A program made the translations under genes and the position numbers. Under the pieces are notes generated by a model. That model was not told where the DNA came from. It made no database searches and saw only the letters and a program-made list of their open reading frames with translations. A stretch of DNA of 64,000 nt. Source: Tetrahymena thermophila SB210. Taxonomy: Eukaryota; Ciliophora; Oligohymenophorea; Hymenostomatida; Tetrahymenidae. The stretch is from contig NW_002476218.1 in NCBI RefSeq assembly GCF_000189635.1, positions 310,001 through 374,000 on the forward strand, given 5' to 3'. Shown one piece after another: positions 5,866 to 56,852 of this stretch (position 1 is the first letter of the stretch; every line of letters starts with the position of its first letter).

Positions 5866-8800
5866 ATGAGTAAAAAAGAGAAAAAAAACAAGAAAAATAA
5901 CAATAATATTAACATCAATAATAGCTTATTAAGCTCTTAGCAAAATATTTTAAGCCAATCTCCAACAGAATTTTATTTTATACAATGCAGATTTGTAGAT
6001 GATTATGGTGAACATGGAGAGTTGATTGAACTTGATATTTCTCAATATTTAAAATAGGTTAATTATGGTTTAACAGCAGCCGTATTGACTGATTTTTTAT
6101 TTGCAAATTTACATAATTTAGACGAAACTAAAATATAAATAAGCTATGATGAATTGAATTATGTTTATCTCAATCAGCTAGATTAAAAAGTCAAATTAAA
6201 TTTTATAAACAACTGCATAAAGTTAAGACTTAGAAGGGCTTAATTCTCCATTTTCTAGAGACTTCTAAGGCTGGAAGAGGAAAACAAAGAGCTTAAAATT
6301 AAGATATAATAAATGCAAATCGATAAGTAGAATGATTTAAAAATTAGCATTATGAATAGTAAAAATGACGAAGAAGAGGAAGAAATCGATGATAATTTAA
6401 TAGATTTAGCGATTTTATATAGCGATCCTTTAGTAGAGATGAAAAGAACAATTTAACCATATTAGCAATCTGTTTCTTATCAAAAAGAAATTATTGATTT
6501 AAAATAAGAACTTCAAAGCACTTCTAAATAAATTAAAATTAAGATAGCTAATTTAACTATAGATAATCTTTAAAAAGTTTGCATGCATAATAAGCCAACA
6601 ATACTGCATATTATATGTCATGGATAGGTAGATAATAAAGATAAATATCTCCATTTTGAAAATTCTGATTACTCATTACAAAAAATAAATCCTGATGATT
6701 TGCGAAAAATTCTTACTCACTTAGAAGATAAAAAACCAAAAGTAAAAATATTATGTTTATCAATGCAGTCAAATAAATTTTAATTTCATTAAATGGCCTC
6801 AAGTAGGTTAAATTTAGCTAAATATATTGCATATTTTAAGTATTTAAAATACTCAGCCAAATTCAGTTTTAATAATATTTTTATTTATAAAAGTATATCT
6901 TTAGATACCATTAATCATATGATGTACTTATTAAATCATAAATATTTTTATTAAAAAGTTAGTTTTTGTTAATGCATGCAATTCAGCAATAGTCAGTGAT
7001 GTTTTTAGAGAAGCTGGGATACCTTTTGTGGTCAGTGTAGATTAGAATCATTCAATTTTAGATGAAGTTGCCTAGAATTTCAGCAAATATTTTTATAGAA
7101 ACATTATTTAATATGGGAAATCTATTCAAGATTTGTTTTTGAATGCTTAGGAGATTACTGACAAAGTAATTTAAGGTACAAAAAATTATCCTTGTTGCTG
7201 CCTACATGAACACAAGTCTGATTGCAAATGGTTTAACGGAGACGATTAAAATCCTAACCATGAAGATCACATTTTAGATTGCAACTGCTCATAAAAACAA
7301 TAGTAAAAGCATTATAATTCGTGCAAAGAGGCAAAAGAATTCCTTTAAAAGTATAAACCATAATCATTATAATCATTAGAAAAATCTACATAAAATTTTC
7401 TTTTTACCTGTTGCTGCTATACTTATCAAGAATTGTAAGAAAAGAATCTACTTTATCATTAAGAATGCCAAAAATTTAAGCTTGATTATGACCCTCAAGA
7501 TGATTTTTTTAAGTAGTTTTGAAATATTAATTAATTTCTATTTTTAAACTGAATCCATTAATTTAATAAAACAAGCAAACCGCTTTTCAAATCAAAAAAG
7601 ACAGGTAGATTGATAGATAAATCAGATTTTGAAATTGAAAAAATTTCTTCTTCACTTTTTGTCAGAAAAGTAGAAACTTTTAATGTTCTTAAAACACTGA
7701 GAGACCCAAACTAAAAATGTATTAGTGTTATAGGTAAAAAAAGAGTTGGCAAGAGCTTATTCGTCACAAAATTAATTGAATACTCTAAATTGAGAGGTCT
7801 TTACCCTGATTTTGTATAAGAAATTGATGTAATAGCTTATTTTAATTATTGGAAATAACTTGTTTTAATTTTTAAAAAAATATATTTAGATGAAAGACAT
7901 CTACTATTGTGAATAAATATGGCCATATTTTAAAAAAAATTCAAAGAAAGAAATGCTAGATCATGTCTAAAGTTTAGATGGTCTTATTTATTTCAAAGAT
8001 TGTGATAAGATTTTCGAGAAAGATGAGAATAACTTCAAGTAGCTACTATAAGATTTATCACGCTATACAAAATAGTTGAAAATAATTCTTACGGTACAAA
8101 AAGAGTACCATTCTCCGTTTTTTACATTTTATTTAAAAGACTATTTGGCATATGATACCAGAGTTTACTTAAATTATTTACTACTTTAAGAAAATGTTAC
8201 AATTAATAAAAGAAAGCAATATATCAATGATTTTTTAAATAATCCTAAGATACAAAGAACTACTTTTAATATTTAATATTTTGCCAAATACAAATACTTT
8301 AGTGGTATAGAGACCATAGAAGACAATTAAAAGTAGATTCTTGATGAAATATAATAAGATCCATAGCTATTTAAATTATGCTGTATTCTCAGCTTTTTTA
8401 AATATGGATTGAATGAATAGGATTTCAATATTTTAGCTTTAAGCAATTTAATTCCAAAAGACTGGCTTGAATAAATTCAAAAAATAATACTGAAAGTAGA
8501 TAATCGTTAAACTAACTATGTTGCTCATAAATTTTAAGATTTATATGATATTGTGAGAGGAAAGACAATAGGAATATCTAGAGGAAGATTAAAATTTTTT
8601 AACATAAATATGAGAGAACTGTTTGTTGAACAAGGAAGCAAGCATTTTGAGTCTATTCTTATTTCTTTATATTTATTTTCAAGTGTTTTAACTAAGAGAG
8701 AAAGGAAAACAGACTGGAAGTTATTAAAATTAATAGATTTTTCTATTTTTTCTTTGAATGTCGAAGTTTTTAAGGACATTATTCCTAAAATAAAAAATCC

Positions 8801-11800
8801 AGTCATTGAGGCAGAGGATAGGTTAGAATAAGAAAGTCAAGATAGAGGATAAAAAATTAGCTGGATAAATGAAACATCTTAATACATATTTTCTTTGCTT
8901 GATAAACACGACTTAATCAATGATTCTATGAGGAGTGAGGAAATAGAAGCTATTGTTTAAGTAGTTTTGGCTTTATTTTTCTAATTAGTGTCTTTAATGA
9001 AGTTAAATATAACTAAAAATTTTTTAATTAAGCCTATTTGTTATTGGGGTTAGCGCTTCTTTTAAAAATATCTCTAGTTGGTACCTGAAAAAAAACTCAC
9101 AAAAGAAAATTAAATTAAAAAAGCAGAAATATATCTAGATTTGTTATTACTAGACATAGGTATTAATGAAAAGAACGGGCATGAATTAATTAAACAACAT
9201 TTCGAAAATATAAATTTTATTCTAAAAAAGCTAGAAGGAATGGATTTTTAGCAAGTGTAAGCAAGTTACTCTTTATTTTTAGATAGCTTAAAGCATTAAT
9301 TTATTTTAAAATTAGGATAGAATCATAGCTCTATTAATGCAAGGCTTATTTGCTCATCCTTAAAGACTAATTTGAATACTTAAATAATGGAAAATTAGAC
9401 TTAGTTGAGCATTAAAAAGACAGAGAGTAAATTTTAGAAAATTTAATAAAATCTGACTAGTGTTTGTCAAATGATGGGTATTCTGAAAATTTTGTTTATA
9501 AGGAGTTAAACGCAGTAATAAAGCACAAAAATACAATTTTCTTATAAGAATAAAAGATTCTTTTTGAACCTCATACTCTCACTTCTGAAGACAAAGCAGC
9601 AGTGCACACCATATAGTAAAAGTATATCAAAAATAAATTCTATAAAAATATCTGCATTATTTATGAAACAATGATGAATCACATCTAATTTCAGATCTAC
9701 AGTAATTAAATTTAAAACGGCATAACAGAAGCATTCAACAATCTCAACAGCCATATTGAATAAAAATTTCCATAGTTTAAAGATCGAGAGGTAGAAATTA
9801 AATGCTGCTATTTTAAATAAAATTAATTAATTTATCTAAAATAATAATAGAATTTCTATGGAACTGTCAGGTTATAAATATACAAGTCAATTATTCAGAG
9901 GTACAGAGAAGAATGCAATAAAGGTTTAATATACATAATGCATAGCTAGCCATTGATAGATTTCATAGCAGAACAAAATGATAGTTTGGGTAATAGCTTT
10001 GGTACTTAGAAAAGTTAAAAGTAGCAATTTAAATATCTTGATTAACCTTATTATAGCATATGGAATTATAATGAAATTCTTCGCTCATAAGTATTCTAAA
10101 AATGCAAAAAATAAATAAAATACAGCTTTTTAAGTTTTAATAGAAGGAATTACAATCTGGCAACAAATTCTGGATGTTAAATAATGTCAATTAATTCAAA
10201 CTTTAATGAAGACTCATCTCTAAAGACATTATAATTTGAAGGATGTTAGCTACTAGAAGTTGATTAATATGATAATGAGTAAGAGAAAATATTAGAAAAA
10301 ATTTAATAGCTTTAAAATGTTAGAATACTTATTTTATGTGTAAACAATGGATAAGCTCTTAAAAATATAATTTAAGAAAATATTTTAGAACGCTAATAAT
10401 AACAATAAAGAGTAATTATTTATTTCCCATTCAAGGAAACTTGCAAATCTTTCGATAAAGTGCTAATTTGTTAAAAATTCTAGCTTGAATTTTTTAAGCA
10501 ATATCTAAATCAAAATAACAAAACGATTAAAGAATCTTTTGATGTAGCTAAAGAATAGACTAAAAACTTTATCCTTAAAAAATTTGATCTTAAAAAAGTT
10601 TAAAACATAAATTTTGATAAAGTTTTTGGCGATGTTCCATCAATTTATTCTAGTTCTGATAGTTTTTTAGAATAACCATTTGTAATTGATGAGATAGAAA
10701 AACCTTAAGAAATAACTCCATTGATAAAACAAAGTAATATCTTAGAGTAAATAAACATGGATAAAGTCATATTGAAAAGTAGAGATATCTATTATTTAAA
10801 GCACTTTTTTAATGAGTCAGAGATTAGACTCGTGAACTTGTATAATTAGAATAATACAACTAAAACAGGAAAGACAACTCTTGCTTTATCTTTTGCAATG
10901 ACTATGCTAGAAAGAAATCTACACTTCACAGGAGGAGTACACTTTATTTAAAATAGACACAGCAGTCTAGGATCCATTTCATCTTAGAAAGGTGTTGCAT
11001 TTAATTTGAAACAAACTCACTCTGCAGGTGTTGGAGGATAAAGTTTTAATGATAGTCAAATGAATTAATCTATTCAATCTCATTCTTCTAACTGCACAAC
11101 AACTTTTAATAGCTGCCATATTTAAGGTGGAAGCATCTCCTCGCTTAAGTAAACTCTAGAAAGTTTAAATAGTAGTTTGTTCAAGATAAAAAGCTCAAAT
11201 TTTCATAACATTAATAGTAGCTAAAGCTCTTACGGGCAATTTAATTAGTATAACTACCATGCCCATGCAGATCCCATTTTAATTATTTTATCTGGATTCG
11301 ATTGCTTTTCTCCGAAGCAATTTGAATTTCTATTTGAAAGAAATTATCTTCCAAATTATAAGTTTTTAAACATTTCAAACCGTAAATTTTCACTTCCTTA
11401 ATAAATATATTCAAAGATGTTCAAAAACCACGAAGTTATGTCATATAAAAATATCTTAAATAGACTAGTATAAATAAAAATTGAGGAAGAAGAGGAAGAA
11501 ATTACTAGCACTTAGAAAAAGGTTGATAGCCACCATCATAATCATCATAACCATTAGTCAAACAAAAGTAAATCAAAATAGAGTAAATATTAAAAAAATT
11601 AACCGCAAAAGCATAGTACTAATAACAATAGTCATCACCACCAAATTATGACCTCTTAAGCATTAAGCCTTCTAGACCCTTGCCCTAAAAGTGTAGGCTA
11701 AAGCCAAATATAGCAATAAGTTTCTTACATAATACCTAAAACAACACCATTTTTAGTTTCATAAAAATCCTAGAATAAAAATTCGTCAAAGTCATTTAGT

Positions 11801-12445
11801 AGCGATAACACAAATTCTAATTACCAATCTTAATCTTTAAATTTGCATGATATTTAAATTAATACTGTAAACTCTTGTGATGCATTCATGCTTAAAGGTA
11901 CAGTTTCTGAAATATAGAAGGAAAATAAGGAAAATGATGAATTTTTTGATGATATAGATAATGAAATTTTTAAGTCAGACAACAGATCAATATCAAATTC
12001 AATTTAATTGACACCTTTTTCATAACAAAGTACCAAAAAATCATAAACAAATTTACCTATCATTGGAAATAAATAGATTGGAGATATTGTAAACAATGGA
12101 AATTTGTATGAACCACTAGATTCTAACTTCGAAGAGTCTGATAATTTGAAAACAGAATTATTTAAAGAATAAAATGAGACCTTTAGTGAAATTTGCGAAA
12201 GTAATAATGATTATAATAAATATAATAAAAAAAATAAAGATTTCTATCATTCAAGTGAAAACCTAAACACAAGCAAAACAGAAAACTAAATCAGAAAACC
12301 TAAATACTCTTCTTCCTAGGAATAATAAAATATAAAACTTTGCACTAGTTCATACGATGACAACAATTAATATGAGGAAAATGGAGAAACATTTTAAGAT
12401 GATTCAGAAAAAGAAGAGTTGGAAAATGATAGAACTTTTGACTGA
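5866..12445 (+). CDS. CHAT protease-like / STAND-type P-loop NTPase, tandem architecture, 2059 aa
   Basis: Exons 5866-6741, 6959-7512, 7576-7828, 7890-9256 and 9316-12445 join in frame; introns are 217, 63, 61 and 59 nt. Order: basic Asn/Lys-rich N-terminus; coiled helix (~130-160); CHAT domain (~245-360) with HIICHG (His252) and FVNACNSA (Cys299), the expected His-Cys dyad. Next comes a Cys/His-rich linker (~360-475), then a P-loop GKKRVGKS (530-537), a Walker-B-like LIYFKDCD and a sensor-like LKIILT. A long helical stretch follows (~650-1250). A second, degenerate CHAT-like segment (~1325-1425) lacks the Cys and His and is followed by TKTGKTT (~1532-1538) and ILIILSGFD. The tail is low complexity and His-rich (HHHNHHNH), with an acidic end. 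CHAT domains are caspase/separase-clan peptidases; STAND NTPases are signal-dependent switches. The substrate is unknown. The start is the first Met in frame, but a 5' exon is possible. Identification rests on motifs and order. Confidence 0.75.
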
Positions 12446-13011: not shown

Positions 13012-15108
13012 TCATTATTTTCTTTTAGATTTTTCAACAAAGTATTTGTCTGAGTGAGATGAATAAGTTGATGAAAATTCAGTTGTGTTAGGAGATTTTC
13101 TTGCAGTCTTTACAATATTAGCTCTTTCACCCATACTTTCAATGTTTGATTCATCAGTTCCTCTTCTCATTCTATTATAAAAGCAAAATTGTTAAAATAA
13201 AAAATATGATAAATATTTAATCTTTACCTGAAGTTACCATTCTCACCCCATTCTTCACCCCATGAGTTTTGTAATAACCAGAATTTGCCGTTTTCATCTT
13301 CTCCCCAACCATAGCAGAGAACTGAGTGATCAACTTTTTACCAGACAGGATTTTCTTCATTGTTTTAAATCCATTGGTTAGCATCAACTGAGTGATATAT
13401 ACCCTTGTTGTAATACATGAAATCCATTTTAGGTTCAAAACTGACTACAATAGGACCGTTTTTATATATTTCTTCCATCATCAATCTTTCAGTTGATTTT
13501 CCATATGATCCACCGATATATCTTTAAAATATCAAAATAAATTAAATTTTAAACATGCTTTTTAAATATATATTATTTACTCGTAATCAGTAACTGTGAA
13601 TACTTCACTGAGAGATTCGACATTGCAATGATTGCATTAACCATCTCTAGCTTCATAAGGATGACAACTTTCAGGGACAGCTTCGAACTCACTGTAAAAT
13701 TTGCTTACCAAAAATCCATAACCACCATCGCAACCTTAGTTATAATAATTACATGCCAAGGAGTGTTGGGGTGAGAGTTAAGTATTATCACCGTATTTAA
13801 TCCACAAACGAGATGAAAGCATAGAAGTTGTGGCAATAGCATAGCAACTTCCACAATCTTCTTAAGAACGAGGAGCATGGATATATTCAGCCCAATCAAA
13901 AGACTTAGGAAGATCTGATATGTTCTCCATAGAAAAGTGGGCATAATCGGTAGTTGCTTTGTTACCTCTCAAGGAAGATGATGATTTTTAAATAAAGGAG
14001 CCTTATTTGTTGTCGTAACTGAATTTAGGCTTATCCATTCTTAGACCAGCTCTTGTGTTCATCTACTCAAGACTCATTTTGCTTATGAAAGAAGGAACTT
14101 TAGCTTACCATGTACTTCCTTTAATTGAGTTTAATCTCTTAACGATTTCTTAATGGTTTAATAATGTTGCAGGTGTTTGTTTCATTTAAGCAAATACATT
14201 TTCATGAGGCTTCAAGTAAATTGATTCTAAAATTTTAATAAAATTAGTTTAAATTTTTACTTATTTAACAATAATTTTGCATTTCCATTAATATACAAGA
14301 CTTGCTTTTAAAAACGGTCATATGCCACTATAAAAATTAATCAAATTTTGTTTTTTTTTAACATATTATTTCATATTTTTTTTTCGTAAACTCTAAGCAT
14401 AATAAATAAAAAAAAGCTATAATAATATTAATTACGATGGAACTTGTTTTTGGAAGAAAGCTATTATCTTTTAAGAGAGTTAGAAGCATTAATTTTTTAG
14501 CTTTTTTATTATTCTTATTAGCTGCTTAATTTATTCATTGTAGATGAAATTTCAGAAAAAATGTATTGAGTTTCCTTGGGTTATACAACATGAGCTTACT
14601 ATACATTATCTGAGAATTCTTAAGATGCGTCTGCTTTAATAGCTTAAGAGCATCCTCTAGATTTTTTTTGAATGTGGTTGAACCAACCAACTAAGGTTTG
14701 AGAGCAAACAGATTTATATTATCCTGAGTCGTCTTTAGCATACTTAAAAAAGTGAGTATATTTAACTCCATTATATTCAATTTCCCAACCTTCATCATAG
14801 ACTAAGGTCCATCTACCTTTACCTTCTTTTCCTCTTACTGTGAAGTCTTCATCTAAAAATACTTCATACTCTCTTTCAACTTCAGTTAAAACACCACCCA
14901 TGGCGCTATTGCTTGATTCTGCTTTATCAGGAATTTAATGACCACAAGAAACAGGCTTGTTATTACTTGATGCTAGAACTTTTCCTTCTTTAAGTAACCA
15001 TTTACCAGTTATTTAAGATCTAACGCAATGAACAGGTAAATCAGCTTATACCAATAAGCTTTAGACTGCAAACAAGAGCAATATTGCAGCTAATCTACTT
15101 TTAACCAT
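13012..15108 (-). CDS. CTSC: cathepsin C / dipeptidyl peptidase 1 (papain family C1)
   Basis: Exons (transcript order) 15108-14436, 14226-13581, 13521-13228 and 13171-13012 give 590 residues; introns are 209, 59 and 56 nt. A signal peptide (~1-24) is followed by DLPVHC and a region resembling the cathepsin C exclusion domain, including FFKYA and VGWFNH. A propeptide linker follows, then a C1 catalytic domain: SQEDCGSCYA with Cys352 nucleophile and oxyanion Gln346, DHSVLCYGWG with His505, and LLQNSWGEEWG with Asn525. Family members remove N-terminal dipeptides in lysosomes or phagolysosomes and can activate other proteases; the exclusion domain blocks the far end of the cleft. The C-terminus extends ~45 residues past the usual RRGTDE motif with a Ser/Lys-rich tail. 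Gln346 is a TAA codon, direct evidence for the ciliate code. Confidence 0.93.
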
Positions 15109-28169: not shown

Positions 28170-30968
28170 TCATAAATTACTTTTCATTCTATGATGATCA
28201 ACACCATTGTTAATATTATTTTGATAAGGGATAAGCAATTCACTTTTACAGTAAAAGAGCAAGTAAGGGCTTTATCTACCTGATGACTAATATCTATTTA
28301 TTGACTCTTAACTAATTGATCCTGCATGACTATCATTATAATTATACCATTTACCATCATATGGGTTGAGTGATTCTCTTTTTTTATTTTAAGATATTGA
28401 TTTAATTTTTAAGTTTATATTTTTAAAAATTTTAATACGATGTGTAGTGACCACCTGAAAGGCTACCGCTATGATTAACTATTCCAAACAATTCATATTT
28501 ACTATTCTTCACACTATTATCAGCTATTAAAAGCATAAATTAATATAAAATATGATTTTCTATTTAAAAATTACTTGAGCTCTATATGAACTACTATACA
28601 TCAAAATTTGTTACAGGAAATGACACGTTTGAAGAGATTTTATTTCTATAAGACCTTCCAAAATTAAATCTTTTAAGGTGGATAACTAATATTTGAGGTA
28701 ATTTGTATAGCTCAAATTATCTCCTAGATTTAGTTCTTGCTTTACATTTAGAGCAATAATAATCATCATCTAAATTTTCTTCTTTAAGAAATGCTTTTAA
28801 AAGATCTACCAAATCTGCTTCATTTTCTTGACCTCTGCTAAAACTTAAAGAAAGATCCATAAAATTATCAAAAGCTAAGCTCTCATTTTTACACTTAGAG
28901 CATATGACTTTGCTCAAAAGCTGTCCACTAAAAAAGTCAGTAACTACACTATCATCTCTGCCTTTGTAGTATTAATACCAATCATCACTCTATTTAATCA
29001 TAAATTGTTAAAAGAATTTAATATTTATTTTAAATTACAATCTCTTATAGTGTTCTTTTGTTGGTATCAGCTTCAAGTTCCCTGTATTTTGGTTTAGCTC
29101 TAACTCTATTTAAGTCTTCATGAAGCCCATCAAGTAGGCATCTTAGCAACTCTTAAGCATCTTGTTAATCTGTGCCATAAAACTAAGAAGAAACCCTTTC
29201 TATAATATTTAATTAATAAATGAACTAGCTAACTTGCTAAATTTTATTTACCTATGCTTTTTTTTAGTGCATAAGGAGCTTAAGAAGAAGAGTTACCAGT
29301 ATTTCTGACTTATTTAATCAGCACAGAGTAACTTTGGGCTACTCCTTTGTTTTTTGGGTTAATATCTTTTTCAAAAGATCCAGAAAAAAAGAACTCATTA
29401 AAAACAGGAGTATTGAATACACATTACAGAGCTGAGTTCCTATTAAAAAAATATTTATTATAATTATACTTTTAAATAATATATGTGCATGTAATGCTAG
29501 TTACATGAAGCAAGTATTTCCAATATTGTTAAGACCTGCTGAAGATCTTTTGCTAAATGTAAAATTAAATTTTGAGAAATCAAAATCATATTTATAATAT
29601 CTTATCAATGGGTTTGTGCTTTACTATTATTCTACTTTGTTCTTCATTTAAAAAGATTATCTACTATCAACAGAATTTTAATTTTGTACTTCCAGTTTTG
29701 AGTTTTCATTTGGTGTTAGTTTATTATTAGAATTTATAATTTCAGATTTTTATATTTTTGGTTAAAGTTTATTTAAACTCTCTTCTTAAAATGCCAATCT
29801 TTCTTTATTTTCTATTTTTACGTTTTCCTTGTCATCAATTTCTTTTTCTTTTTATAAATTTATTTTTTTAATTGATAGTTTTAATTTAAATAATACTTAT
29901 AATTTTAGGAGGAAGTGATGTATTGTTTTGAGATATGCTTATACTTTTACCAGTATCGTATATTTTTTCAAACTTTTCTTCTAGACTATCCTTAGCAACA
30001 TTTTAGACTTGACTATTAGGTACCTTCTTAGGTTCTTTTGAATTAAGCATTTTATCATCAAACTATTTTGATATACTGCTATTGTTATTATTATTATTTG
30101 GAGGAGTAGTTGAAAAGCTAAATTTTTAGTTTGCACTAAGGGTAGCATTTTTTGTTTTAGGATTATTTATGAAATCATTTCCTCTAAATTCAATATGGTT
30201 TTCTTTTGAACTATCTAAATGGGCATAATCATTTTATTTTTATTGGTATTCACTGTTAAAGTAAGGCTTATTTTGATTTTATTTATTTAGAGTCAAATTT
30301 TCTGCTTATTTTTGATAATAGCTTTCAGTTTAAACATTTTATTTAGGAATTTATGGTAATTGACTCTCTCTTTTATTTATTTCATGTAAGTTTTCTTTGC
30401 TTGATAAATTTTTGTCATTGATCATTGACTTTAAAGGTGGTTTAATTATCTTAGAGCTATTTTGTGCTTTACTATTTAAATCGTTGCTACTTTTTTCAAA
30501 GAGTGACTAATTATGCTATTGTCCTTAGTAATATTCACTTTTTTTATCACTATTATCAACTCCTCCATATTTAGTTGTAGATTTTTAAGGGCTGTGATTA
30601 AGCTAAGGTAATATTTATTAATTTTTAACTTTTATAGTTTTATATTATTATTCTTCATTTTAAAATTGATAAGCTTAACCATTTTGTAAAGAATATTATT
30701 ATTTATTTGTTCTAGTATTCCATGGATTACTATTTCCTATAAAATTTGCTTATTAACTATTCAGACTTCTTTTTAGTGATAAAGATATTTGCCCATTTTA
30801 TGAATTATTTATTTTGTTGAGAGATACTTTTCTTTCCTATTTGGTTTATGTCAGTTTATATTCATCATTTTTTGAGTATTTTGGATTGCTCTTTTACATT
30901 AATAGTTTAGCTCCGTTTTTAACACTATCTATAATTTGTTTATTTTATATCTTTTTGATACTGCTCAT
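28170..30968 (-). CDS. ubiquitin-specific protease (USP, peptidase C19)
   Basis: Seven exons in transcript order: 30968-29897, 29847-29505, 29439-29252, 29199-29039, 28989-28575, 28523-28439 and 28377-28170, giving 823 residues; introns are 49-65 nt. Residues 1-~450 form a Gln/Asn/Ser-rich, probably disordered extension. The catalytic domain follows: Cys box GLNNIGNTCFMNS (Cys470), the GTDQQDAQELL box, and a zinc ribbon with two CxxC pairs (CSKC...CSKC). Then come LVIHLKRFNFG, the His box GSLSGGHYTS (His752) and the Asp of WYNYNDSHAG (Asp770). USPs remove ubiquitin from substrates or chains; all catalytic parts are intact. The chain ends ~50 residues past the His box with the usual LLFYCK strand. 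The start is the most upstream Met in the frame. Which USP subfamily it belongs to is not clear. Confidence 0.92.
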
Positions 30969-31793: not shown

Positions 31794-33218
31794 TCAATTT
31801 TTTTCATGATCTTCGCCTATGAGAAGAGAATTAGGGTTGTAAGTAAACTCAGGAAAGTTATACATAGGTTTTTTATTTGCTGCTCTAGGAGATTCTATGA
31901 TAGTCTTTTCTCGGTATGCTCTATCAGGTTTTTTAGAAATATATTATTTTAACAAAGATTCTAATTCTTTTCTATATATTTTGTCCCAATCAATTTTTTC
32001 AAAGAAAGGATGGGATTTCAACTCTGCAAAATTGTTGCTGCCTAATCTTTTATTGCCAATATTTTAAAGAAGCTTTTTGATTAAGTCTACAGCTTAAGCT
32101 GAAAAATAACTAGGAAATATAGGTTTGTTTATAATTATATCTTTCATTAGGTTTTTGCCTGATCCAAATGGAGGCTTGCCAGAAAGCAGCTCAAAGAGTA
32201 GAATACCTAATGTCCAAAGATCAATATTTTTATCATAGGGTTTTTAGAGGACTATTTCAGGAGCTAAATATTAAGGAGTTCCTAAAAATGCATTTTCTTT
32301 ATCTTCTTTATTTACGAATTGCTTTGCTAATCCAAAATCAGAGAGTTTAATATGACAATCTTCTCCAATTAGAATATTTTCTGGTTTTAAATCTCTGTAC
32401 ATAGTATTTTGTTCTTCATGCAAATATTGAAGTCCTAGTATAACCTAAGTTTTTAAAGAAAAAATAATAAATACTTAAAAAATATCTCTGACAGAAAATA
32501 TAAAATTTTAAAATTCATTTAAGACTTTTTATTATTAAACAAAATTATAAATTGCACAATACAACAAAATCATATAAATACGTGTTCATAGCTTATTTCA
32601 AAACAACTTGATAACATTTAATTCTAAAAAATGAATCTTATCAAAATGAATAAAAGTTACCTCAGCAAAAATAAACCTTGCTGTATTTTCATCAAATCTT
32701 TTAACCTTCTATAGAACAGAGTATAAATCTCCATTAGCCATGTATTCCATAATTATATACAATTTGCCTTCTGTTTGAAAAGACTAAGAAAGCTTAACAA
32801 TAAATGGGTGTCTGCTTTTTTTAAGAATCTTTTACTCTAGTAAGGTAGCTTCAACCATTTTTCTATTAATAGCAACCTTTTCTTTTTTCACAACTTTCAT
32901 TGCATATAACTTGCCGTCTTTCTTCTTCCTAACTAGAGATACTTCTCCATAAGCACCAGAACCAAGATTTGCAAGTTTTTGATAATCATCAAAAGGGTGC
33001 TTTTCTTGATGTACTTTTTTTTACTAAGAAGAATGCGATCTCAATGAACTTATTTGTGATACTTTAGTACCTTATTAATTCTAGTCTGGTGGAGAAAGAA
33101 AGTTAGGATTATTTTAATTGGCTGTTTTAGTTAGTTCCTAGTTATTTTTATTTAAAAATGAGTATCCCATCTAACTTGGCCCATTATTTTGATTTGGAAC
33201 ACAACAATTATTTCCCAT
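31794..33218 (-). CDS. AGC-family Ser/Thr protein kinase with predicted dual-lipid anchor
   Basis: Two exons, 33218-32661 and 32444-31794, separated by a 216-nt intron; 402 residues. MGNNCC at the N-terminus fits N-myristoylation of Gly2 plus palmitoylation of Cys5/Cys6, so the kinase is probably on the plasma or ciliary membrane. The Gly-rich loop is GSGAYGEV (86-93), the VAIK-type Lys is Lys108, the catalytic loop is YRDLKPEN (Asp204, Asn209) and SDFG holds Asp222; APE is present. The C-terminal tail carries the AGC hydrophobic motif FPEFTY (383-388) with Thr387 as likely phosphosite. No cyclic-nucleotide, PH or C2 domain is present. The activation segment reads NAFLGTP, with Ala where PDK1-activated AGC kinases have Thr/Ser. 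The core is complete, so activity is expected, but without that switch. Confidence 0.92.
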
Positions 33219-53370: not shown

Positions 53371-56300
53371 ATGGATAACTTAAATAGTAACCAGGTATTT
53401 AATTAAAATTAAAATTATTTCTCCTCTTTTATTTTCTCTTTCTTTTCATATTTATATTTATTCGCTCAAGCTTTTCATATAATCCAAACATATTGTTTAT
53501 AGTAAGTTAATTAGTTAGTAGTTAGTTAGTTAGTTAGTTAGTAAAAAAGCAAATAAGTAAAAAAGTTAGAAAAAATAAATAAATAAGTTAGTGGTTAGTT
53601 AGCAAATAAGTAAGCGAATGAGCTATTTCCACCTACGCATCCAACATCTAACAATATACTTTCATACTAATAGTTTTATTGTTTATCATTAAGTTAGTAG
53701 TAGCTCCTCTCAAACTATAAATCCATCTCAAATTCCTACACTTCAAATTGTCTTTAAAAATTTTTAATAAATATAAAGCTCTCTTTAATAATTATTTTAT
53801 CTTAAAATATTTCAATTTCAATTGCGTAAAATAGTTATTTACATTCAAAGGCTTCCATTTATGCATGTAATCAAATCGTTGGTCTTTCTCTAAATTGTCT
53901 TTTATATGAATGAGAGTTCATTCATAAGTAGTTTAGGTTGATATATATCTTGTCTTTAGTAAGATTCTACTTAACGCTAAGCTATATCGAAGTAGTTGCA
54001 CATTTTCAAGCAGCAAGCAAGCATGTAGAATTAAATAGACACTAAAATTATTTAGATAGTTATATATATTATAAAGCATTCAAAAAACAAGAAGCTCACT
54101 TTTTCTAAGAAGTCCTTCAAAGATTCTAAAGATGATATTCAAATTATAATAAATTAGGTTAAAATTAAAGTTGTGTAGGATATGATGGTAGTTATGCTGA
54201 GAGAGAGTTTTTTATGAAAATTCTATGGTTTTCTTTTTTAAAAATGCGAAATTATTTAAATTAGAATTAAAATAGCTAAGCTAATTAACTAATTAACAAA
54301 CTAACTAAGTAACGCGATTTTGAGTTTTCTACATAGAGTTAATTTTTTTTTTGCAAAAGTGCAAAAATTTTTGGGAGCGAAAATATAAATGATAAGAAGA
54401 AAAAAAAAGAAAGATATTTTAAAAAAGAAAACATTTTTTGAAATTTCATAATAAAAATATTTTAAAATAAAAACAGATAAATACTCAGAACAACACCACT
54501 GTTGAGTTCTTCTTATCTTCAGAGTAATAAAGAATCATAAATGAATTGCTCCCAAAGGGATACTCTCTCTAGTTCGCTTCCAAGCCAGCCAGATCTAAAT
54601 CAGGCAGCTTTACCAAAACTATTGCTTAATTTGGTCGTTAAAATGTAATCATTTTTTTAAAATACGATTGTCTATTTTAATAATTTTTTTCGAAATGACT
54701 TTGAATTTTTTAAATTCATTTTTATGCATACAAAAAATAAATATATTTATATTTAAATATAGGATGGATAATTAAGAAACTCAAACGGCTAATTCGCTCC
54801 TTCCTCTAAAGCTTCTAAAAAATATGGAACAGGAAAGTTAGCATCATAGGAAGGATATGCTGTCCCTTCGTTAAGCTACTAAGGAATTAATTAAGCAGCT
54901 TATCCTCCTATGCAAGGAAACGGATCAAATTAAAATAACAATGGAATGAATACTCCTCAATTAAATAGTTAATCTTCTTAAATTTAGGGCTAATATAACT
55001 AAATCCCTAACTTGAATTAAAGCTAATCTCAAGTCAACTAATAATCTGGTTTAAATCAGCAATACTCTCAAAACAATAATTAACTTGGATATTAACAGTA
55101 ATAGCAAATTTAGCAATAAGCATAAATGAATTAAGGAGTATAGATGAACAATATGCAAATGTAGTAGTAATAAATGAACTAAGGAGGAGCCATGTATGGT
55201 CAAAACCAAAATAATGACTATTATCAAATGCAATAATAGAATTCCTCTTAGTATTAAACTTCAGATCAAATTCGTATGAATTAATAAATGTAATAACCAG
55301 ATATTTACAACTAACACTTAATCCACATGAAGCCTACTGGTTAACGTAAGAACACTGTCAGCAAACCTCGCAAAGAAAAAAAACTCAAGCAAAATGAAAA
55401 AGCTCAAAAATTAAATAAAAGAAAGAGCGATGCAAGTCTTGCTGCTAAAGTCTCAAAGAAGTAAAGAGCTCTTATGGCTGCTGTTGGAAATGAAGAAATC
55501 AGCTATGGAGGTATGCATCCTGTAGAATAAAAGAAGTGCTTACACATTCTACACTCTCTACAAAAGCACAAATCTTCAAAGCCTTTCTTGAAACCAGTTG
55601 ACCCAATAAAAGAAGGATGTCCTGATTATTACATGGTTATCCGCGAACCAATGGATTTATCTACTGTTGAAAAAAATCTGAAAGCTCATCTATACTAATC
55701 CCCAACATAATTTGCTGCTGATATCCACAAGATTTGGAAAAATAGCTTTATTTACAACAATCGTGACTCTTAAATATATAACATGACTCTTGAAATGGAA
55801 AAATATTTCAGCAGAAAGTTCAAAGAAATTGAAACTAACTTGTATACCAAGACTGATGGAAGAACTTCTACAACTGACATCATTTAGGCATTAACAGGCT
55901 TCTTAACCTAGAACTAAAAAGGTACAAAGAAAAACAAAATAGCTGGTCTTTAACCTATCCAAGTCCCCCTAACATCAGCTCCTTAACCCACCAAAAAGAC
56001 TAAAAATCCTACCTCAAAAATGGATATTCCCATGACAATGTAAGAAAAAAAGAATCTCGGACAAAACATTTTATTACTCCCACCTGAATGTTTACGTGGA
56101 GTTTGGGAGATTGTATAATCTGATGGAAACTAGCAGTATGACGACAAAATACTCACCTTTGACATTGATGCTCTATCAGTTCGTAAAACTCGTGAATTAG
56201 AATAGTATGTCAAGCAAAACATGGCTGCCAACAACAAAAGACTCTCCAAGAAGTAAGCAAAAATCCAAGAAAAGTCCATGAATGCTGACTAAAAGCTTAT

Positions 56301-56852
56301 CTAAAATTCAACATTCGGTTAAGATGACGAAACTGCAGCTACTCATCATGAAACAGTTATTGTTTAAGGTAATTTTCCCTTTTTAGAATTTCATTTTCAA
56401 AAAAATTATTTATAAAGAATTTTCTTTAAAAATAAACATTTTAATTTAATTTCACAAACTAAAGATTTTCAATATTTTAATTAAATTTCGTTTGATATGC
56501 TATATTAATATTAGACTATAACTATACAGATATGACTTAGAGCACAATTCAGCACACACAATAGTATCAAGTTCCTATGCACCCAAGCTAATATCAAATG
56601 GAGCAAATGCACACCTAAACCATTGGATCTTATGGAAATGGATAGACAGAGTATGCCTAACATCAACATGATATGAATTAGGGAATGGATGAATAAGGAG
56701 ATATCAACGATATAGATTCAGACTCATCTAACATTAGTGACAGTAATTTCAATTAATTAAACTATTATTTGGTTTATATAAATTGTATTTAACTCAAAAA
56801 TCTAAACTAAAATTTTTATTAAATAGATGACAGTGACAGTCAATTCAATTGA
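53371..56852 (+). CDS. BET-type chromatin reader: one bromodomain plus ET domain
   Basis: Exons 53371-53394, 54525-54644, 54763-56368, 56530-56742 and 56827-56852, 662 residues. Residues ~50-240 are Gln/Asn/Met-rich, with most Gln as TAA/TAG. A Lys-rich stretch (~250-285) follows. The bromodomain spans ~299-405 with PFLKPVD (ZA loop), DYYMVIREPMDLSTVEKNL and the acetyl-lysine Asn in IYNNRDSQIY. The ET/NET domain (~480-545) contains LLLPPECLRGVWEIV and FDIDALSVRKTRELEQYV. The C-terminus is acidic (DIDSDSSNISDNDSDS). BET proteins bind acetylated histones and recruit transcription factors through ET. Animal BETs have two bromodomains; this has one, as in plant GTE and several protist proteins. 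The tiny first exon is the least certain; donor 53387 (GTAACC) with acceptor 54522 also keeps frame. Confidence 0.88.
53511..53542. repeat. (TTAG)n microsatellite inside the first BET intron
   Basis: About eight TTAG units with one interruption at 53518-53521. This is not the ciliate telomere repeat. It lies in the 1.1-kb first intron of the BET gene. Confidence 0.75.

Follow-up and report, generated by a model that had tools for sequence, protein, structure and literature searches.

Fungal NLR and NLR-like proteins are described that carry a CHAT protease at the N-terminus and control gasdermins (PMC10197012, PMC12881547). The gene studied here, at 5866..12445 (+) of the 64,000-nucleotide stretch of Tetrahymena thermophila DNA that was analysed (the window), encodes a protein resembling these CHAT NLRs, as far as those reports describe them, in placing a CHAT peptidase before a probable STAND/NLR NTPase in a single eukaryotic polypeptide. 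In contrast to the fungal proteins, it has a Cys/His box between the two domains and a second, probably dead module; no WD40, ANK or TPR repeats were recognised in it, and the gasdermin profile PF04598 gave no match in the whole genome by exon-wise six-frame search, a weak absence.

A prokaryote genome scan yielded 3 weak relatives out of 55, of which a cyanobacterial locus of Dolichospermum (L030) was examined closely. It encodes a CHAT domain (34.7 bits) followed directly by a STAND-like ATPase, the P-loop domain AAA_35 (154.1 bits), and its CHAT domain aligns at 98% probability; unlike the window protein, it has a single module, and the CC-x-H-x-H motif is lacking at the locus. Separase (peptidase C50) belongs to the same peptidase clan as CHAT; the source genome, however, has its own separate separase gene (one gene, C97:12069-12770; PF03568, 126.3 bits in the six-frame search). 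The best solved relative found by profile is the CHAT protein 8tl0_A (E 2.5e-9); this protein and the TPR-CHAT protease Csx29 (PMC10028731) differ from the window protein in belonging to CRISPR-linked bacterial systems that are triggered by RNA or a messenger and have no NTPase of the window type. In the ternary iSTAND systems, too, a caspase-like domain is joined to a STAND described as inactive (PMC7159879); these systems are encoded in prokaryotic multi-gene operons, and the likeness drawn here is one of description. In one open library no paper was found on the CHAT domain in ciliates or on CHAT with a STAND NTPase in Tetrahymena, and PF12770 was absent from the ten papers listed in a further search.

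Since CHAT-NLR proteins are already described in fungi (PMC10197012), the window protein appears to be a version of a known architecture, and our best reading is that it would work like an NLR-type gated protease, an unusual form of a known class of cell-death or immune sensors. In fungi, CHAT-NLR proteins connect the control of a protease with cell death, as CHAT proteases do in bacteria, and a conserved and duplicated ciliate version would extend this theme to another eukaryotic branch.

Gene structure and the first CHAT domain

The gene comprises six exons and five introns and encodes 2039 amino acids under genetic code 6, in which TAA and TAG specify Gln. A codon check placed the ATG at 5866, the close of the final sense codon at 12442 and the TGA at 12443-12445. 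The exon/intron model was derived by splice-aware alignment to the window of P0001, a T. malaccensis protein of 2035 aa that is itself predicted; it contains no internal stops, and the two proteins can be aligned end to end, with 1848 identical residues among 2030 aligned. Intron 1 (6742-6958, 217 nt, GT..AG) separates the His strand from the Cys strand of the CHAT domain, intron 2 (7513-7575, 63 nt) follows, intron 3 (7829-7889, 61 nt) lies within the first NTPase, and introns 4 (9257-9315, 59 nt) and 5 (9791-9850, 60 nt) lie within the helix-rich middle region, all on the forward strand; introns 2 to 4 were placed by the alignment to P0001. Intron 5 is missing from P0001 and, because it is in frame and free of TGA under the ciliate code, is undetectable by frame reading and was revealed only by the relative. 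Introns have a GC content of 13-20% versus 25-29% for exons. The window lies on contig C282 of the 101 Mb source genome.

Relatives were compared in a six-sequence alignment of the window protein, P0001, two paralogs (A and B) that lie on contig C339 of the source genome, and the metagenomic proteins P0002 and P0003. The paralog models, built by aligning the paralogs with the window protein, are approximate, especially outside the conserved domains. The two genes (L009 and L010; C339:110.7-116.6 kb and 100.0-110.1 kb) adjoin each other on the same strand, with B upstream; the source genome holds at least three CHAT genes. The order CHAT, Cys/His box, NTPase recurs in both paralogs and in the two metagenomic proteins. 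Paralog A also has the tandem order of two modules; the model of paralog B contains the first module alone, and its P-loop Lys is lost. The protein database searches contributed one, one and three proteins, the first and third of these searches among the best 8000 candidates by shared words, and a viral scan (23 pattern matches) gave no relative.

An intron at 6742-6958, immediately before the Cys strand, had already been proposed by the sequence-only reading, and the splice-aware alignment of P0001 selects the identical intron. Its junction falls inside an ungapped aligned stretch shared with paralogs A and B, each a single open frame there, and with P0002 and P0003. A gene-model artefact, with the His and Cys segments on separate mRNAs, might be suspected from the length of intron 1, which exceeds that of the remaining four (59-63 nt), and from the frame, which continues open beyond the region if it is left unspliced; however, the junction is identical in T. 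malaccensis and the CHAT domain is uninterrupted in the four other relatives, and we consider such an artefact extremely improbable. The sequence-only reading was silent on introns 2-5 and missed three features described below, namely the Cys/His box, the second module and the missing Walker B acidic residue.

With intron 1 removed, the CHAT peptidase domain spans aa 177-358 (6394..7156, +), on either side of the splice junction. The Pfam profile PF12770 matches the window protein at aa 172-350 with 46.9 bits (E 3.3e-12; cut-off 24) and the relatives with 39.5-66.4 bits. The motifs named earlier are in place: HIICHG bears H252 (codon 6619-6621), FVNACNSA bears C299 (codon 6977-6979) and is followed by the helix, and GKKRVGKS at aa 530-537 forms the P-loop. 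H248, C251, H252, G253, C299 and D327 are kept in 6/6 sequences, and 174/182 residues of the domain are identical between the window protein and T. malaccensis. With a profile match above the cut-off and the H252/C299 dyad kept throughout, the window protein is, by its sequence, a member of the CHAT family and a putative cysteine protease. When P0002 was aligned to 8tl0_A, the HG and NAC motifs paired with the dyad. The window sequence by itself did not retrieve 8tl0_A, a PDB search with its first 700 aa giving two unrelated weak matches. The caspase/metacaspase profile PF00656 had no match to the window protein at E <= 1 and reached 15.1 bits on P0002, under its cut-off of 21.4; NCBIfam gave no match above any cut-off, and PADLOC reported SAVED_CHAT on P0003 at only 19.5 bits.

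The Cys/His box, the first NTPase and the flanking regions

The Cys/His box (aa 368-466; 7184..7480, +) is an insert between CHAT and NTPase1. Fifteen Cys and His residues in it are kept in 6/6 sequences (C371-C373, H375, H377, C381, H393, C400, C402, H410, C414, C443-C445 and H459), and 111/115 residues are identical between the window protein and T. malaccensis. This pattern suggests a zinc-binding insert, which we regard as probable. The window's box has no Pfam match and may represent an undescribed domain. Used as a genome query, the box of paralog A matched solely the two C339 genes; as it missed the window gene's own box, the reach of this search is limited.

NTPase1 (aa 502-690; 7649..8276, +) was delimited with the six-sequence alignment and with NACHT, NB-ARC and nSTAND3 matches of its relatives, all below threshold. 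Its P-loop GKKRVGKS (7733-7756) provides a Walker A motif and is followed by a degenerate Walker B, LIYFKDCD (aa 593-600; 7983-8006), and a sensor-like strand, KIILTVQ (aa 625-631; 8079-8099), all on the forward strand; the last two lie about 60 and 90 residues past the P-loop, in agreement with the earlier description. The acidic position of Walker B is occupied by Lys in the window protein, by Asp in paralogs A and B and P0002 (motif LDNCDD) and by Glu in P0003 (FENCDS). Identity of NTPase1 between the window protein and T. malaccensis is 180/191.

The designation of this domain as a STAND-type NTPase, made before from the window's letters, stands through the relatives only, as the window's own first NTPase has no Pfam match at E <= 1. 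In paralog A, NTPase1 exceeds the cut-off for AAA (23.7 bits; cut-off 21.2) and remains under those for NACHT (23.7; 26.7), NB-ARC (18.5; 23.5) and nSTAND3 (19.2; 27.2). These matches of paralog A make a STAND assignment likely for NTPase1. A STAND, NACHT or NB-ARC profile above its cut-off was reached only by NTPase2 of paralog A, and not by the window protein. By its relatives, the window NTPase is therefore a probable STAND member whose Walker B is without the acidic residue normally found there.

The regions flanking the first module are less well defined. The N-terminal domain (aa 36-115; 5971..6210, +) is loosely common to paralogs A and B and P0003 in a four-sequence alignment, with no Pfam match above its cut-off. 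Past NTPase1, a winged-helix-like segment (aa 718-760; 8358..8486, +) may be recognised by eye from a motif common to paralogs A and B and P0002. The helix-rich middle region (aa 761-1234; 8487..10027, +), which contains introns 4 and 5, was assigned by position; it is a possible sensor region and may consist of diverged helical repeats. No known repeats of the WD40, ANK or TPR type were recognised in it, and the precomputed Pfam annotation of P0001 lists CHAT alone. The low-complexity C-terminal tail (aa 1736-2039; 11531..12442, +) is among the least conserved regions between the window protein and T. malaccensis (259/302 identical).

The second module

A degenerate CHAT-like segment appears at aa 1235-1421 (10028..10588, +). 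The window/T. malaccensis pair was scanned against the CHAT1 profile in sliding stretches of 190 residues (n=62, of which 12 overlap CHAT1). Six stretches starting at aa 1231-1381 scored 28.9-29.4, the 37 clear of both CHATs reached at most 18.8, and those with partial overlap scored 15.4-22.4. The segment itself obtained an hhalign score of 28.9, versus at most 20.6 for column shuffles (n=100); with a CHAT profile built without the window protein and T. malaccensis it scored 24.6, versus shuffles of at most 20.1. The alignment to CHAT1 is colinear, with no His or Cys at the sites of the dyad. The corresponding hhalign probability is about 26%, or 8% with the independent profile, both below any accepted threshold, the segment has no Pfam match, and the counterpart in paralog A, compared directly with CHAT1, obtained a probability of 3.3% (E 0.013). 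On account of these low values we call the segment a probable, not a proven, degenerate relative of CHAT. Its identity between the two species (177/187) is similar to that of CHAT1, which argues that it is not decaying.

The same low probability and zero Pfam matches, together with the still weaker scores of paralog A's segment, would fit an unrelated alpha/beta domain, in which case the protein would have a single module followed by a C-terminal P-loop domain unrelated to it. We judge this unlikely, since the likeness to CHAT1 runs colinearly across the domain, beats every shuffle and occurs at a single such place in the protein, and since the domain that follows is an NTPase which, in paralog A, is homologous to NTPase1.

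This domain, NTPase2 (10814..11530, +), is divided on the forward strand into a P-loop part with TKTGKTT, which lacks the first Gly (10814-10960), a low-complexity insert (10961-11245) and a Walker-B/sensor part with LIILSGFD and KFLNISNR (11246-11530), in which Ser occupies the acidic position. Against the NTPase1 profile it scored 26.3, versus at most 18.9 for shuffles (n=60). The evidence from paralog A is much stronger: its NTPase2 matched the NTPase1 profile at 97% probability (E 2.4e-11, score 73.2; shuffles at most 20.2) and exceeded the Pfam cut-offs for NACHT (35.3 bits; 26.7) and ATPase_2 (39.2 bits; 33.2). A BLASTP comparison of aa 1230-1735 with the second half of paralog A gave E 0.002 with 23% identity over 312 columns, and a PDB search with NTPase2 of paralog A gave no solved relative. 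The assignment of a second P-loop domain is thus firmer than that of the dead CHAT.

Proposed mode of action, a possible role in nuclear death, and genomic surroundings

From N- to C-terminus the protein consists of an N-terminal domain with a coiled coil, an active-looking CHAT, the Cys/His box, NTPase1 with the winged-helix-like segment, the helical region, the probable dead CHAT, NTPase2 and a disordered tail. The earlier proposal of a trigger-gated protease is, given this architecture, a fair one. We favour, with some reserve, the view that the gene product is a CHAT cysteine protease under STAND control that contains a second, regulatory copy of itself, and we propose the following hypothetical sequence of events, in which (i) the CHAT domain would be kept inactive at rest by the NTPase and helical parts; (ii) a trigger in the cytosol would bind either to the helical region or to the dead module; (iii) the NTPases, with nucleotide, would then assemble; and (iv) the CHAT domains would be brought together and cleave a single substrate or a small number of them. 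In this scheme the dead CHAT might serve as a pseudo-protease partner or as a docking site.

Both window P-loops contain GK[ST], but neither NTPase has the acidic residue that is usual in Walker B. The Lys and Ser at these positions, and the P-loop of NTPase2 without its first Gly, make a hydrolysis-driven switch doubtful in the window protein. The CHAT domain could accordingly be active while the NTPases are frozen scaffolds, which bind nucleotide in order to fold and not in order to switch. Regulation would then come from the dead module or the Cys/His box, or else from a partner protein, for example paralog A, which retains the acidic residues in both of its NTPases. The lost P-loop Lys of paralog B points in the same direction, as do the iSTAND proteins, described as inactive STANDs with caspase-like N-terminal fusions in prokaryotic conflict systems (PMC7159879). 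However, the retained GK[ST] and the high identity of NTPase1 between species suggest that nucleotide binding is under selection; we regard frozen scaffolds as conceivable, with a clearly lower probability than the STAND-controlled protease.

The CHAT protein might also be the source of the caspase-like activity that accompanies destruction of the old macronucleus during conjugation in Tetrahymena. The genome search found no PF00656 caspase/metacaspase match and yet three CHAT genes are present, and separase was found by the same kind of search. All genome profile searches were six-frame and exon by exon, and since introns split genes and PF12770 recovered just one of the three CHAT genes in this way, the absence of PF00656 is weakly shown, as are the other genome-wide absences. 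The inhibitor zVAD-fmk also acts on other cysteine proteases, which speaks against this reading. Caspase inhibitors, zVAD-fmk among them, are reported to affect nuclear elimination in Tetrahymena (PMC4021357), and a report on protists describes the origin of their caspase-like activities as unknown (PMC2829475). On the other hand, Tetrahymena nuclear death has been termed caspase-independent (PMC3191509), and CHAT enzymes need not cleave after Asp, the cutting of Csx30 by Csx29 being described as having no essential Csx30 residue (PMC10028731). A role of the CHAT protein as this source is, in our estimation, quite unlikely. We consider it very unlikely that the protein is a ciliate executioner unlike animal caspases, in which active and dead CHAT-STAND modules on one chain would pre-assemble protease, pseudo-protease regulator and two switches and supply the caspase-like activity of nuclear death. 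The three CHAT genes form a short list of candidates for the caspase-like activity reported in Tetrahymena nuclear death.

Around the CHAT gene, Pfam was run on 19 of the 172 open frames in the window, and no gasdermin was found among these 19. Immediately downstream lies a papain-family cysteine protease (13532-14317, -; PF00112, 78.2 bits). Further neighbours are a UCH deubiquitinase (28357-29370, -), a protein kinase (31794-32585, -) and a bromodomain/BET gene (54442-56535, +), and an M24 peptidase match was obtained among the scanned frames. Elsewhere in the genome, NACHT gave 14 matches at E <= 0.01, 12 of them above the cut-off, on contigs C185, C260, C196, C110 and C182 (L020, L023, L025-L027). 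One locus (L020) has a clear NACHT domain (55.5 bits) and another (L026) scored 24.9 over its whole frame, slightly under the cut-off. Five matches on C185 are spaced 8-10 kb apart, in the manner of a tandem array.
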